Positions 8,160-12,860 of a DNA stretch of 64,000 bases are shown here, piece by piece (within the stretch, counting starts at the first letter, position 1; every line of letters begins with the position of its first letter). Location: contig NC_007503.1 of the NCBI RefSeq assembly GCF_000012865.1, positions 62,001 to 126,000 of the forward strand, read 5' to 3'. The position numbers and the translations under genes are program-made. The DNA is from Carboxydothermus hydrogenoformans Z-2901 (GTDB lineage: Bacteria > Bacillota > Z-2901 > Carboxydothermales > Carboxydothermaceae). The notes under the pieces were generated by a model, which did no database searches, had not been told where the DNA came from, and saw only the letters and a list, made by a program, of their open reading frames with translations.

Positions 8160-8588
8160 ATGATACCTTTTCGGGATGAAATAGAAAAAGCGGTGAAAAA
8201 AATAGTTTTATTGTGTTCTCCTGAAGAGGTCTACCTTTTTGGTTCCTGTGCTCGAGGAGTAGCGACTTTAAGAAGTGATATTGATTTATGCGTAATAGTG
8301 AATACAAATGATAAAAGGAAACTCTTGCAAGAAATTTATTTTAATATGGACGTGGAGCGAGAGGTGGATATTGTAATTTACACTCCGGAGGAATGGTTAA
8401 GATTTAAAGACAATCCTGCTACATTACCCTATATAATTGCCCATAAGGGGGTTAAAATTTATGGTAGACACCAAGAATTATCAGGAATGGTTTTAAAAAG
8501 GCAGAAAGTGATTTTAAAGGAGCAAGGATTTTATTTGAACATGATGCTGATTTTGGGCTTGTATGTTTTCACTGTCAGCAAGCTGTAG
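8160..8588 (+). CDS. MNT-type nucleotidyltransferase, reading frame extended by a frameshift
   Basis: Minimal nucleotidyltransferases pair with HEPN proteins, either as toxin-antitoxin modules or as substrate-modifying pairs. The core motif GSCARG (28-33), followed by SDIDLCVIV with the catalytic aspartates D40 and D42, is intact. The family usually has about 100-115 residues; this frame gives 142. Removing one T from the run 8491-8494 would end the protein after 111 residues, which fits, and would simultaneously restore the overlapping HEPN frame. The last 30 residues are thus probably an artefact or a mutation product. A TATAAT (8133-8138) precedes the gene. Confidence 0.82.
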   Translation: MIPFRDEIEKAVKKIVLLCSPEEVYLFGSCARGVATLRSDIDLCVIVNTNDKRKLLQEIYFNMDVEREVDIVIYTPEEWLRFKDNPATLPYIIAHKGVKIYGRHQELSGMVLKRQKVILKEQGFYLNMMLILGLYVFTVSKL

Positions 8589-8819
8589 AAAAATACCTAA
8601 AGGGGTTTTTAATTTATAAAACTGGAATATTGTATGAAGGTCATAATCTCGTAAAGCTTTGCCAAAAAGCAGCGAACTTATTATGTTGAAACACGATATC
8701 CGGCAGAAGATCCATTGATTATTACTTTAGAAGAAGTTGAAGAATGTTTGAATATCGTTGAAAGAATAAAAGGTTTTATTTTAGAAATTCTTAACCAAGA
8801 GGGTGAAAAAGGTGTTTAA
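8461..8819 (+). pseudogene. HEPN-domain protein, broken by a frameshift and an internal deletion
   Basis: Read from ATG 8461 the protein begins MVDTKNYQEWF and stops at once. One T fewer in 8491-8494 joins it to KKAESDFKGARILFEHD and HCQQAVEKYLKGFL, the hallmark of HEPN proteins that partner MNT enzymes. That frame ends at a TGA near 8690. A third frame then gives YYVETRYPAEDP and a final helix ending at 8819. Between LCQKA and YYVETRYP most family members have roughly 20 more residues, so an internal deletion is likely as well. The gene overlaps the MNT 3' end and the uspA start. It is probably inactive unless the sequence is wrong at two sites. Confidence 0.8.
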
Positions 8820-9261
8820 AAAAATTTTAGTTGGGATTGACGGTTCAGCTAAAGGGGATAAGGCTTTGGAGATGGCAATTGGGCTTGCCAAAGAAAGTGG
8901 GGCTGAAATTCATCTTGTCCATGTAACCCCCTGGCCGATTTTGCCCAATGTTTTTCCGCCTGGGGCGATTGCCTACGTGCCGGAATCGGTGATCCAGGAG
9001 CTTACCGATGAGCTTAAAGCTAAAGCAGAAAAAACCCTTAGAGAAAGGCTTTTAAGAGTCGAAGAGGCTGGAGTTAGCGGAAAAATTAAGGTGTTAGAGG
9101 GAGAACCGGCCAGCGCTATTGTAAATTATGCCCAGGAAGAAGGGGTGGAGTTAATTGTAGTGGGCAATCGGGGGATTTCTGGGGTAAAGGAATTGCTCTT
9201 AGGAAGTGTCAGCCACAAAGTATCGCAGCTTGCCCGTTGCCCGGTGTTAATTGTAAAGTAA
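8812..9261 (+). CDS. Universal stress protein, UspA family
   Basis: A 149-residue cytoplasmic USP-fold protein. ATP-binding members carry Gx2Gx9GS, and this one has it in GNRGISGVKELLLGSVS near the C terminus, plus the N-terminal ILVGIDGS whose Asp contacts nucleotide. The GTG at 8812 gives the usual beginning MFKKILVGIDGS and has GAGGG upstream; an earlier GTG at 8803 would add three residues. Its start overlaps the HEPN remnant. It lies tail-to-tail with the cooA-like gene, only 44 bp away. Its stress signal is unknown. Confidence 0.9.
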   Translation: MFKKILVGIDGSAKGDKALEMAIGLAKESGAEIHLVHVTPWPILPNVFPPGAIAYVPESVIQELTDELKAKAEKTLRERLLRVEEAGVSGKIKVLEGEPASAIVNYAQEEGVELIVVGNRGISGVKELLLGSVSHKVSQLARCPVLIVK

Positions 9262-9305: not shown

Positions 9306-9978
9306 TTACAAACTTAACTGAAATATTACTTTTTTAAGGGCATCGATGTCTCGCACTAAAATGCTTCTTTTGTACACTGTAATGATTTGCTGGGCTTCAA
9401 ATTCTTTCAATAAAGTAGTCAGCGTTTGTCTGGTAGCTCCAATTAGATAGGCAAGTTCTTCCCTGGTCAAACCGGTATGCACCAGAATGCCATCATGCTG
9501 ATGAATGCCTCGGCTAAACGTCCACTGATATAAAAGGTTTGCCAGGCGGATTTTGGCTTCCATGAATACCAGTTGTTCGATTACGTCTAAAGAATGCTTT
9601 AACGCATCTCCCAGCACCCGAATCAAACCATACATTAAATTAGGATACCTTGCCAGCATTTTCCGAAAGGCATCTAACGGCATCAGCAACATAACCGAAT
9701 CTTCAAGAGCCTGACCAAAGGCACGGGTATGTCCGCTAAAAATATCTCCTGGATCCAGTATTGTTAGGATAAACTCCTTACCGTCGGGATAAGTGAGAAA
9801 GACCTTGATTCGGCCTTTGGTAACGAGAAAAATATCGTTGGGATAGATTCCCGGGGAAAAGGCTATTTCTTTTTTTCTTTAGGTAAATCTCTTTAAAACT
9901 GGGGATAAACTCCTTAAGCTGGTCTAAAGATAACTCACCGAGCAGTTTATTATTGGTTATTAAACCAAAACTGCGCAT
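9306..9978 (-). pseudogene. cooA: CooA-like CRP/FNR-family CO sensor, single-base frameshift
   Basis: CooA is a haem dimer that binds DNA when CO occupies the haem and switches on CO-oxidation genes. From ATG 9978 (GGGGG upstream) the frame reads an N-terminal helix and FKEIYLKKK, then shifts at a run of seven T on the + strand (9870-9876). Dropping one base restores 223 residues, the length of CooA (222). The repaired protein has GDIFSGHTRAFG, whose His aligns with the haem ligand His77 of Rhodospirillum CooA, while the Cys75 position is Ser. The C-helix and the HTH LTREELAYLIGATRQTLTTL also match. As sequenced, only a 66-residue fragment and a separate C-terminal piece could be made. Confidence 0.85.
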
Positions 9979-9998: not shown

Positions 9999-10007
9999 AT
10001 TATACCA
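9999..10007 (-). promoter_or_regulatory. Extended -10 promoter for the cooA-like gene
   Basis: On the minus strand TGGTATAAT (TG at 10007-10006, TATAAT at 10004-9999) lies about 20 nt before the GGGGG ribosome site. No convincing -35 is seen. The cooS terminator lies just upstream, so cooA has its own start. Confidence 0.6.
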
Positions 10008-10046: not shown

Positions 10047-10073
10047 AAAAAAATCCCTCCTTCGCGGAGGGAT
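10047..10073 (-). terminator. Terminator after cooS
   Basis: Minus strand: ATCCCTCC and GGAGGGAT around a GCGAA loop, followed by seven T residues. It separates cooFS from cooA. Confidence 0.9.
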
Positions 10074-10110: not shown

Positions 10111-12021
10111 CTACCATGGTAATCCCAGGCCGGCCCGGCGTTCGTTGATTGCTGCAAGGAGCTTATCGGCCGCTGTTTCGGGATCAAGTTCGACAATAAA
10201 GTAGCCTCCGGTTATATCTTTGACGCTGCTCGTAAGGATTTGGGTCACCGGTAAACTGCCTGTAATGGGCGGTAAAACACCGATATGAGTTGGTAAGCCA
10301 ATGGTTACGGCCCAGGTGCCGATGGCAACAGCCTTTTCATGCATGGCTTCGGCAGCAGAAGCTACAACCGGAAGTCGGTCCAGATCTACCCCCAGCCGAT
10401 TGGCTAAAGCTGCTACTAAAGCTACTGCCCGGGAGTTGTCCACACAGGAACCCATATGGAGGACCGGTGGCAGAGGGCCACCTAAACCGTTAGCTTCCCC
10501 AATGGCAGTCAGCACTGCTTTAAGACCGTCGCCACACAGCTCGTCTACATTGGCTGGGTCCATAAAGCCGTGACGCATCAGGGCACCGGCACCGCAGCCG
10601 GTGGCTACTACGAGAACATTTTGCTTTAGTAGTTTGCGGGCAATTGTGGTGAAATTTTGATCCTGGGGAACTTTGACGTTGTTACAACCGGCAAAGAGAC
10701 AAACTCCCCGGATATTACCGTTAACTACATTATCAATTAACGGTTTCAACGGATCATTGGCGTTTAGTTTGCTGAGAGCATTGATGATGGCTTCCGTAGA
10801 AAACCCTGCAACTACCTTAGTTTTTATATTGGGGATTTCGACCGGTTTACCTTTGCGCCGTTTGAAAGTATCGATGGCCAGGCGAAGGATTTGCTTGGCA
10901 TTTTCAACGGCCGCTTCTTCGGCAAAATTCACGTGTGTCGCCCCGGTAATTTTTGACATTTCCATAGTGGTGATAACGGTAGTTCCGGTACATTCGGCTA
11001 TGGTAGCTACGGAAGGTTGAATACATTGATAGTCAAGAATCATGGCATCCAGGGCGCCGGTGATCATGGCCATTTCCTGGCTTACCGAGTGAGTACAGGC
11101 GGGGATGCCATGACGCATCAAAACCTCGTTGCCCGTACAACAAATACCTACCACGTTAATACCGGTAGCGCCGGCTGCGCGCGCTTCGTTTTCCATTTCT
11201 TTGCTTACCGAAACGATGATGTCGGACAGGACCGGGTTATGCCCATGAACGGCCACATTGACCGCATCGGCTTTGAGCACTCCAAGATTGCTCTCGGTAA
11301 CTACCGGCGCGGGGGTACCAAAGAGAATGTCGGCTAAATCGGTACCCATATAACAACCGGCTAAATCGGCCAGGGAACAGCGTAGACCACCCAGTAATAA
11401 ATTTTGAGCATCGGCATCACAACCCATGGAAGTACGATGCATAATTTCAGCTATTTCGTGGTCGATACCGGCGGGAATCAGACCGTGGGCCGACAAAACC
11501 TTGACGCGGCTGGGAGGCAATACCGTAGTTACCCACAGGACCGGGGTATCTTTTTCGTGAAAATCAGCCAGAGCGGCTTTTGCTACCTCTAAAGCGATAT
11601 CTTCATCCTTTTGTCCCTCGGTGGGAATACCAAGGCGTTTGGCAATGGAGTGCAACTTGGTCCGGTCTTTAATCATATAACTTGCTGCTTTGCCTTGAAC
11701 AGCTTTTTTCAAAGTATGAGCCAGGTGTTTCGCGTGCCCGGAATGTCCTGCTGCTCCGGCAGCAATGGACCGATCTAATCCCCGGGCTACTATCACCTCG
11801 GCGGTTGCCCCGCAAATACCAACTTTGGGTTCATCACCAAAGGGATTGATGCGACAGGGGCCCTGCAGGCAGTGGCGGCAGCATAAACCAGTTTCACCAA
11901 AGCCACACTGAGGTTTCATAGCCTCATACCGATCCCATACCGTTTGGATACCTTCGCGTTTTGCCTTATCCAGCATTTGCTGGACGGCACGGTCGGTAGA
12001 CTTTAAATTTTGCTTAGCCAT
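10111..12021 (-). CDS. cooS: Ni-Fe carbon monoxide dehydrogenase catalytic subunit (CODH-II type)
   Basis: CooS is a cytoplasmic homodimer that oxidises CO with water to CO2, two protons and two electrons. The 636 residues have C39 and C47 (shared D cluster) and C48, C51, C56 and C70 (B cluster), placed exactly as in the CODH-II structure from Carboxydothermus. C-cluster ligands fall in the expected blocks GHNP (His261), CCTG (Cys295), CIQPS, FAGCNN, TGCGAG and GSCVDN. The start has GGGG upstream. It lies 18 bp behind cooF in one operon and has its own terminator. No hydrogenase genes or ACS subunits are adjacent, so electrons probably leave through CooF. Confidence 0.98.
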   Translation of the reverse strand: MAKQNLKSTDRAVQQMLDKAKREGIQTVWDRYEAMKPQCGFGETGLCCRHCLQGPCRINPFGDEPKVGICGATAEVIVARGLDRSIAAGAAGHSGHAKHLAHTLKKAVQGKAASYMIKDRTKLHSIAKRLGIPTEGQKDEDIALEVAKAALADFHEKDTPVLWVTTVLPPSRVKVLSAHGLIPAGIDHEIAEIMHRTSMGCDADAQNLLLGGLRCSLADLAGCYMGTDLADILFGTPAPVVTESNLGVLKADAVNVAVHGHNPVLSDIIVSVSKEMENEARAAGATGINVVGICCTGNEVLMRHGIPACTHSVSQEMAMITGALDAMILDYQCIQPSVATIAECTGTTVITTMEMSKITGATHVNFAEEAAVENAKQILRLAIDTFKRRKGKPVEIPNIKTKVVAGFSTEAIINALSKLNANDPLKPLIDNVVNGNIRGVCLFAGCNNVKVPQDQNFTTIARKLLKQNVLVVATGCGAGALMRHGFMDPANVDELCGDGLKAVLTAIGEANGLGGPLPPVLHMGSCVDNSRAVALVAALANRLGVDLDRLPVVASAAEAMHEKAVAIGTWAVTIGLPTHIGVLPPITGSLPVTQILTSSVKDITGGYFIVELDPETAADKLLAAINERRAGLGLPW

Positions 12022-12039: not shown

Positions 12040-12474
12040 TTATTGGACTTCCTTTACCGTTAGAGCACCAACTGGACAGGAGGTAACGCAGACCGGAAAG
12101 TCGGAAACATCTTTGCATAAATCGCATTTTACACAGCGGTCAATCACCCTGATAGCATGAAACGGGCAGGCTTTTTCACAAAGCCCACAGCCGGTGCATT
12201 TTTCTTCCGAACAAACAACTCTCCCTTCTTCATCATAAAAAAGCGCTCCTTGAGGATATGCTTCAATGCATTTCGCTCTTTTGCAATGCTTGCATTGTTC
12301 TATGGTAATTCCTCCGGTTTTGTCGCCGGTGGTATAAACAATTTGTAGTCTTGGTCTAATACCCTCTAATATTGCGGAAATTAGTGATTTTTCCGAAGAA
12401 TGGATGATTGAACAGCTAACTTCACAGCTATGACAGGCTACACAAAGGTTTTTATTAAAAATTACTTTGTTCAT
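12040..12474 (-). CDS. cooF: CooF-type polyferredoxin electron carrier
   Basis: CooF carries electrons from CooS to acceptors such as hydrogenase or NAD(P)-linked oxidoreductases. The 144-residue protein has the four Cys blocks of the family: CVACHSCEVSC, CKHCKRAKC, CTGCGLCEKACP and CVKCDLC...CVTSCP, enough for about four [4Fe-4S] clusters. The ATG at 12474 is preferred to a codon 27 bp upstream because GGGAGGAAGGG precedes it. It is the first gene of the cooFS operon. One block has EAYPQG where a fourth Cys is usual, so that cluster may be modified. Confidence 0.94.
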   Translation of the reverse strand: MNKVIFNKNLCVACHSCEVSCSIIHSSEKSLISAILEGIRPRLQIVYTTGDKTGGITIEQCKHCKRAKCIEAYPQGALFYDEEGRVVCSEEKCTGCGLCEKACPFHAIRVIDRCVKCDLCKDVSDFPVCVTSCPVGALTVKEVQ

Positions 12475-12860
12475 TTTCCCTTCCTCCCTGAGTGGGCTCA
12501 CCGGCCTCTGTAATTCGATTAAATTGACAATATTGCGGGATAAATTTTACTTTTCTGAATAATTCGCGAATGCCAATATTCCCATGCCACACTCATAATA
12601 CCTACCCCTTGTCCTTACGATTTTGATTACTTTTAGTATACTTGAGAAAAATTCTTAATTCCGTAAAGTACTTTACATTTTTTATTTAATTTACACTGGT
12701 CCTTAAACTTTTGCGGTTTTCGAAACCGTTTTTTTTTGTAAAAAAGCATGTTAAGTTTTTAGTTCTTTGGTTAATTTAGAAAATTTTAAGAAATGATTAA
12801 GACGTAATTTAGAAAAAGAAGTTAGAATAAAACTAAAATATTTGAAATGGAGGGTGAATT
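12475..12860. promoter_or_regulatory. Divergent control region between cooF and the MacAB-type operon
   Basis: This 386-bp spacer has no gene. It holds a TTGTCA half-site on the minus strand (12524-12529) in front of cooF, the 10-bp palindrome ATTCGCGAAT (12562-12571), and the perfect 14-bp palindrome GTAAAGTACTTTAC (12663-12676). A hairpin CGGTTT/AAACCG followed by nine T residues is at 12713-12737. I found no unmistakable full CooA box. The hairpin could end a short leader or small RNA read toward macA. Confidence 0.5.
12713..12737 (+). terminator. Orphan terminator-like hairpin upstream of the macA-like gene
   Basis: CGGTTT-TCG-AAACCG then a nine-T tract. No gene on the plus strand precedes it, so it would end only a transcript starting inside the spacer, such as one from TATACT (12637-12642). 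Confidence 0.5.

Follow-up and report, generated by a model that had tools for sequence, protein, structure and literature searches.

A one-base frame break in the cooA-2 gene of Carboxydothermus hydrogenoformans and a candidate CooA-2 operator upstream of cooF-II

The cooA-2 and cooFS-II locus

The stretch of DNA analysed here (the window) comprises 64,000 nt, bases 62001-126000 of the Carboxydothermus hydrogenoformans genome, which is recorded as 2,401,520 bases in one contig. It carries a gene for a CO sensor next to the genes of a CO dehydrogenase (CODH). The original prediction had placed a CooA-like gene beside a cooFS operon, and this neighbourhood was borne out: cooA-2 lies downstream of both cooF and cooS on the same strand. 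The features of the locus are as follows, in window coordinates.

9306..9978, minus strand: cooA-2, CRP/FNR-family CO-sensor gene, broken in the C. hydrogenoformans record
9306..9878, minus strand: 3' reading frame of cooA-2, with the helix-turn-helix (HTH) and most of the cNMP/haem domain; first usual start at 9692
9720..9746, minus strand: GDIFSGHTR motif; the residue expected to bind haem is His83 (codon 9729-9731), and the CooA genes compared have a His aligned there
9778..9978, minus strand: 5' reading frame of cooA-2 as written, a 66-aa product without domain match
9870..9876, plus strand: T7 run (A7 on the coding strand), the site of the one-base frame break according to the sequence and the tract of the relatives; sole indel in the alignment of the coding sequences
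9999..10004, minus strand: TATAAT, possible -10 element of a putative promoter of cooA-2's own; TATAAT in C. pertinax, TAGAAT in C. islandicus
10053..10073, minus strand: terminator-like hairpin and T tail in the cooS-cooA-2 spacer; C. pertinax has it too
10111..12021, minus strand: cooS-II, CO dehydrogenase catalytic subunit (TIGR01702, 744 bits)
12040..12474, minus strand: cooF, ferredoxin-like electron carrier; ATG at 12474, with GTG at 12501 open too
12635..12640, minus strand: TATACT, a -10-like hexamer 21 nt after the proposed operator, kept in all three Carboxydothermus species
12662..12677, minus strand: palindrome TGTAAAGTACTTTACG upstream of cooF-II, proposed CooA-2 operator of the cooFS-II promoter

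The promoter scan did not flag the TATAAT at 9999..10004, and the scan for terminator-like hairpins returned a count no higher than in shuffles.

The plus strand reads TTTTTTT at 9870-9876, with C on either side. On the minus strand cooA-2 starts with ATG at 9978, and its zero frame (...KEIYLKKKRNSLFPG...) ends after 66 aa. The 3' frame is open from 9878 to 9306. Its first ATG, GTG or TTG is that at 9692, which gives 128 aa with the HTH part only, so that the haem domain cannot be made from this frame without a frame change. If one four-base word is read at the tract, the product is 223 aa long and includes GDIFSGHTR, in agreement with the earlier claim that one T fewer restores a CooA-type protein of this length.

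Elsewhere in the window (8160-8820, plus strand), a HEPN-like gene comes after a nucleotidyltransferase-like ORF and is split over two frames (…VCFHCQQAVEKYLKGFL… and then …YYVETRYPAEDPLI…), between which residues are apparently missing.

The CooA-2 protein

The read-through protein (P0001) matches PF00027 and PF13545 above their gathering scores, that is, a cNMP-binding-like sensor domain and a Crp-type HTH. Its four best solved relatives, 2fmy (E 7e-44), 2hkx, 6cpb and 1ft9, are all CooA proteins, and the predicted CooA-type identity is right. It has the two-domain CRP/FNR architecture in common with CooA-1 of C. hydrogenoformans (2fmy, 2hkx) and with CooA of Rhodospirillum rubrum (1ft9), and CooA-1 genes, like cooA-2, adjoin CODH/hydrogenase operons. 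Among the cooA loci compared, cooA-2 adjoins the CO dehydrogenase gene cooS-II, and a cooS is near 22 of the 28 others. CooA-2 and CooA-1 are about 40% identical. The haem-His region reads GDIFSGHTRAF in the former and GDIFCTHTRAF in the latter, with Ser in place of Cys two residues before the His, and the recognition helix has RQTL as against RQTV or RQTI.

In R. rubrum CooA, His77 binds the ferrous haem, and Cys75, two residues before it, is a ligand as well. At the position of this Cys, C. hydrogenoformans cooA-2 and most of the aligned CooA sequences have Ser; C. pertinax CooA-2 has Cys, as have the CooA-1 proteins of C. hydrogenoformans and C. islandicus. Because it varies within the family, the Cys ligand does not define CooA.

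In the tree, the CooA-2 clade (10 sequences) stands apart from CooA-1 with a local support of 0.988. The residue after RQT in the recognition helix is Leu in CooA-2 proteins and Val or Ile in the others; this correlation comes from one tree and is no proof of a difference in specificity. The name of the CooA-2 group comes from Techtmann et al. 2011, as cited in PMC6041983 and PMC6557876. C. hydrogenoformans cooA-2 is a member of this group, from which the copy in the genome record differs by the one-base break, and CooA-2 is the only CooA of C. pertinax. The corrigendum PMC6041983 states that wild-type CooA-2 was expressed in E. coli and turned red, and contains CO-dependent reporter and gel-shift figures for the protein; an intact gene was therefore at hand, or was made. 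Taken together, family membership and these papers suggest that intact CooA-2 would be a haem-based CO sensor of the CRP/FNR family.

Relatives, constraint and the age of the break

When the cooA-2 region (851 bases) was searched, 796 bases aligned to C. pertinax (84%) and 688 to C. islandicus (77%); the broken gene is thus no artefact of chance ORFs. The tract is A6 in both congeners, and the gene is intact in each, with orthologues of 223 and 229 aa. In Desulfofundulus the tract is AAAAAG, and cooA-2 of Desulfofundulus australicus runs uninterrupted with one base fewer at the tract position. In the 673-column alignment of the three Carboxydothermus coding sequences, the gap at the tract is the sole gap.

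Codons at which C. pertinax and C. islandicus agree and C. hydrogenoformans differs were counted as changes on the C. hydrogenoformans branch. There are 15 replacement and 36 silent changes after the break, and 0 and 2 before it, though the seemingly mosaic C. pertinax gene disturbs counting by branch. Since the substitutions after the break are mostly silent, the break is either recent or a base-call error. The accumulated damage and relaxed constraint of a pseudogene are absent from the gene, which has one indel and 15 replacement against 36 silent changes. On this evidence, cooA-2 would have been working until very recently, or would be working still. The mosaic look of C. pertinax cooA-2 consists in a 5' part 95% like that of C. 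hydrogenoformans and a 3' part up to 94% like that of C. islandicus.

CooA-family matches numbered 29, in 27 of 398 genomes, and an internal stop was present only in C. hydrogenoformans cooA-2. A further CooA-2 gene out of frame, near residue 150, was seen in a 72%-complete draft (L174, G440) from the six genomes added for the operator analysis described below; thus, a broken CooA-2 in a draft is not unique.

In a comparison with the two congeners that covered about 184 kb, no other internal frame break as clear as that in cooA-2 was found, the candidates having been judged by eye. The reverse comparison gave about one per congener: a single break in C. islandicus, and in C. pertinax one or two. 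Of the 8 and 5 candidates, all but cooA-2 were rejected as N-terminal overhangs, ORFs of <130 aa and one 159-aa ORF with distant pieces. A comparison of ORF coverage alone misses cooA-2, as its 3' part makes up 85% of the gene and is scored as covered.

Origin of the break

The break is best viewed as an accident by which an A6 tract in an otherwise intact gene gained one base; among close relatives it occurs only in the C. hydrogenoformans record. On this view, either the record contains a miscalled base or the sequenced stock had mutated recently, and the change is neither programmed nor phase-variable. The original prediction had offered a wrong assembly, a recent pseudogene and a homopolymer switch; the first two survive, and the third is not supported.

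That the record is in error, by base calling or assembly, and the organism has A6, we consider an even bet. The site is a homopolymer and the gene is otherwise under constraint; an active wild-type CooA-2 has been reported (PMC6041983), and two later papers, in their available parts, mention two C. hydrogenoformans CooA proteins with no word of a break. However, the genome is finished in a single contig, and 35 other runs of at least seven bases lie within window ORFs that are open.

Somewhat less probable, yet a serious candidate, is a real mutation fixed in the sequenced stock: long culture on pure CO would have cost it the high-affinity CO sensor, in parallel to CODH-III. C. hydrogenoformans has five CODH genes, one of them split, as reported for strain Z-2901, and C. 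pertinax has four. The gene of CODH-III is in two frames in C. hydrogenoformans and whole in both congeners, and the available parts of PMC6085454 and PMC7306483 treat its frameshift as real and put it down to cultivation at high CO. Frameshifts in the C. hydrogenoformans record therefore need not be errors. The small number of other internal frame breaks in the approximately 184 kb compared also favours a mutation of the stock. On the other hand, the wild-type, active CooA-2 of PMC6041983 means that an intact gene exists somewhere, and the occurrence of the cooA-2 and CODH-III breaks in one genome may be a coincidence. The split CODH-III gene itself (L041, G000 near 1084500-1086376) consists of two overlapping frames, and no long homopolymer was seen at their junction.

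It is very improbable that programmed recoding, through a +1 shift of the ribosome or slippage of the polymerase at A7, yields some full-length CooA-2. The constraint on cooA-2 is intact, as recoding would have it, and A7 can let the polymerase slip at a low rate. However, the relatives encode CooA-2 without any shift, and the phase of the tract differs from that of the known -1 frameshift signal, A AAA AAG; a -1 shift here meets TAG.

The least credible explanation is an on/off switch of CooA-2 by slipped-strand mispairing: the A7 run does lie early in cooA-2, ahead of the sensor domain, but seven bases are short for phase variation, the run is not kept in the relatives (A6, A6 and AAAAAG), runs as long or longer are common in this AT-rich genome and in intact genes of the window, and no second tract state was found in any strain compared (one C. 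hydrogenoformans genome, and relatives). The 64,000 nt hold 50 homopolymer runs of at least seven bases, with 12.5 A/T runs expected from mononucleotide shuffles, and 36 of the 50 fall within ORFs of at least 100 aa. The tract is thus neither unusually long nor conserved, as that of a contingency gene would be, and a phase switch is unlikely because A7 is commonplace in the window and no relative has a variable tract.

A candidate operator upstream of cooF-II

The palindrome upstream of cooF-II is present in all three Carboxydothermus species, with invariant arms (TGTAAA-N4-TTTACG) around different centres (GTAC, ATGC and ATAT), in a stretch that is otherwise 70-89% alike. The genomes of C. 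hydrogenoformans and C. pertinax each contain this form without mismatch a single time; C. islandicus has two copies, the other of which lies inside a 597-aa ORF. In D. australicus, where cooA-2 precedes cooS, CGTAAAATGTTTTACG lies between both genes. Similarly, GTAAA-N4-TTTAC was found between cooA and cooS in six of the seven CooA-2-clade loci with that gene order; the expectation by chance within 120 nt of the seven genes is about 0.002, from genome-wide counts. The pattern had been derived from three of the sites later counted, so the clean test is that in six further CooA-2 genomes, previously unused, where an exact site was present in five. Overall, 11 of 13 CooA-2-clade genomes with neighbouring cooA-2 and cooS have the site, as against 0 of 19 other cooA genes (Fisher p 6e-7, a guide only, because related genomes are not independent). 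The two exceptions (L107 and L169, Desulfofundulus-like) have a hybrid site, CGTCAA-N4-TTTACG, with one mismatch.

The classical type of site, GTCR-N6-YGAC, shows the opposite distribution: 16 of the 19 other cooA genes have it, and none of the seven CooA-2-clade loci. The three other cooA genes that lack it are L115, L116 and L122, the last with a relaxed form. A CooA site of Desulfovibrio is given as TGTCGGCNNGCCGACA in the available part of PMC545781. The two types share their layout (16 bp, 5-6-5) and differ in the half site, GTCR for CooA-1 and, as proposed here, GTAAA for CooA-2.

The exact site is separated from a -10-like hexamer by 21 nt in nine of nine cases and then in four of five of the further genomes (22 nt in the fifth), i.e., in 13 of 14, by a loose criterion of four matches in six; among classical sites the hexamer stands at 21 nt in 11 of 15. 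The sequence itself shows that the palindrome is conserved, goes with the CooA-2 clade and keeps a fixed distance from the hexamer. With the usual start 7 nt after the hexamer, the centre of the operator would lie at -41.5. This is the position of class II activators in the CRP/FNR family. CO-bound CooA-2 most likely binds the GTAAA-N4-TTTAC palindrome, whose centre would lie about 41.5 bp upstream of the point where the cooF-cooS-II transcript starts, and would activate this transcript in class II fashion; we infer both the binding and the start of transcription from the sequence.

The genome-wide scans set the limits of this proposal. With the classical CooA consensus, TGTCRNNNNNNYGACR, two mismatches gave 95 hits in the window against 111 expected, and a mismatch-free search of the whole genome gave a palindromic site next to cooA-1, plus one more. 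GTAAA-N4-TTTAC occurs 23 times in the C. hydrogenoformans genome as against 2 for the reversed control (about ten times commoner), and 17 of the 21 sites examined lie inside ORFs; most of these genome-wide sites are for this reason unlikely operators. The pattern is enriched in both congeners too and, where examined, is mostly inside ORFs. With one mismatch, the three genomes gave 22, 14 and 22 hits, fewer than the reversed-pattern controls (30, 26 and 31), so a wider regulon is not claimed.

Another CRP/FNR regulator might own the cooF-II palindrome instead of CooA-2, which we judge improbable. A second CRP-family gene in C. hydrogenoformans (L155, G000 near 1058340) and its counterpart in C. 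pertinax (L167) adjoin a palindrome of the same type, TGTAAA-N4-TTTACA, and in C. hydrogenoformans such sites stand 21-22 nt from -10-like hexamers. However, this regulator is broken in both species: L155 is truncated and fused out of register to unrelated sequence, and L167 has an in-frame TAG. Despite this TAG, C. pertinax cooS-II is reported as CO-induced in the available part of PMC6557876. Furthermore, in the other genomes examined the palindrome goes with cooA-2 and not with this gene.

The half site also resembles that of NtcA, a CRP-family regulator with sites of the form GTA-N8-TAC. The match of P0001 to the NtcA model is weak, at 46 bits against a cut-off of 245; CooA-2 differs from NtcA in falling far under this family cut-off and in having the haem motif and CODH neighbours.

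Two possible types of CooA site

Expression data for C. pertinax, which has only CooA-2, are given in PMC6557876. According to its available parts, cooS-II, cooA2 and cooF1 rise 20-640 fold when CO is present, and so do cooH and cooL. The sole CooA site found there is the one ahead of the ECH cluster, and the authors proposed either a cascade or a CO-responsive factor yet to be discovered. The available part of PMC7306483 likewise gives no recognised CooA motif at C. pertinax cooS-II. GTAAA-N4-TTTAC is probably this missing CO-response site, with binding by CooA-2 proposed from the sequence comparisons above. In the open-licence literature we found neither a description of GTAAA-N4-TTTAC as a CooA site nor a report of the frame break in cooA-2; the main CooA-2 paper may have either.

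CooA-2 does not seem to be restricted to the new type of site. In the gel shifts of PMC6041983 it is said to have bound the promoters pacs and pcooC-hyd, and the promoter in the reporter was that of R. rubrum cooF. The ECH cluster of C. pertinax keeps a classical site, and only CooA-2 is there to read it. CooA-2 may thus read both types.

Overall, we put the probability that an accidental change from A6 to A7 struck an intact cooA-2, and that a CooA-2 operator stands at cooF-II, at about 0.8. A broader proposal, which we favour with less assurance, is that two CooA clades use two operators at -41.5, GTCR-N6-YGAC for CooA-1 and GTAAA-N4-TTTAC for CooA-2, tracking the change from Val/Ile to Leu after RQT; that CooA-2 is the CO factor of C. 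pertinax cooS-II; and that the sequenced C. hydrogenoformans stock lost CooA-2.

The break in cooA-2 is ordinary on its own. C. hydrogenoformans is, however, a model organism, and users of the record would wrongly omit CooA-2 or call it dead. The nearby candidate operator is more worth following than the frame break. If true, it would explain the CO induction of CODH-II, which the available parts of PMC6557876 and PMC7306483 leave open, and it would provide a pair of CO-responsive promoter types that could be tested for orthogonality.
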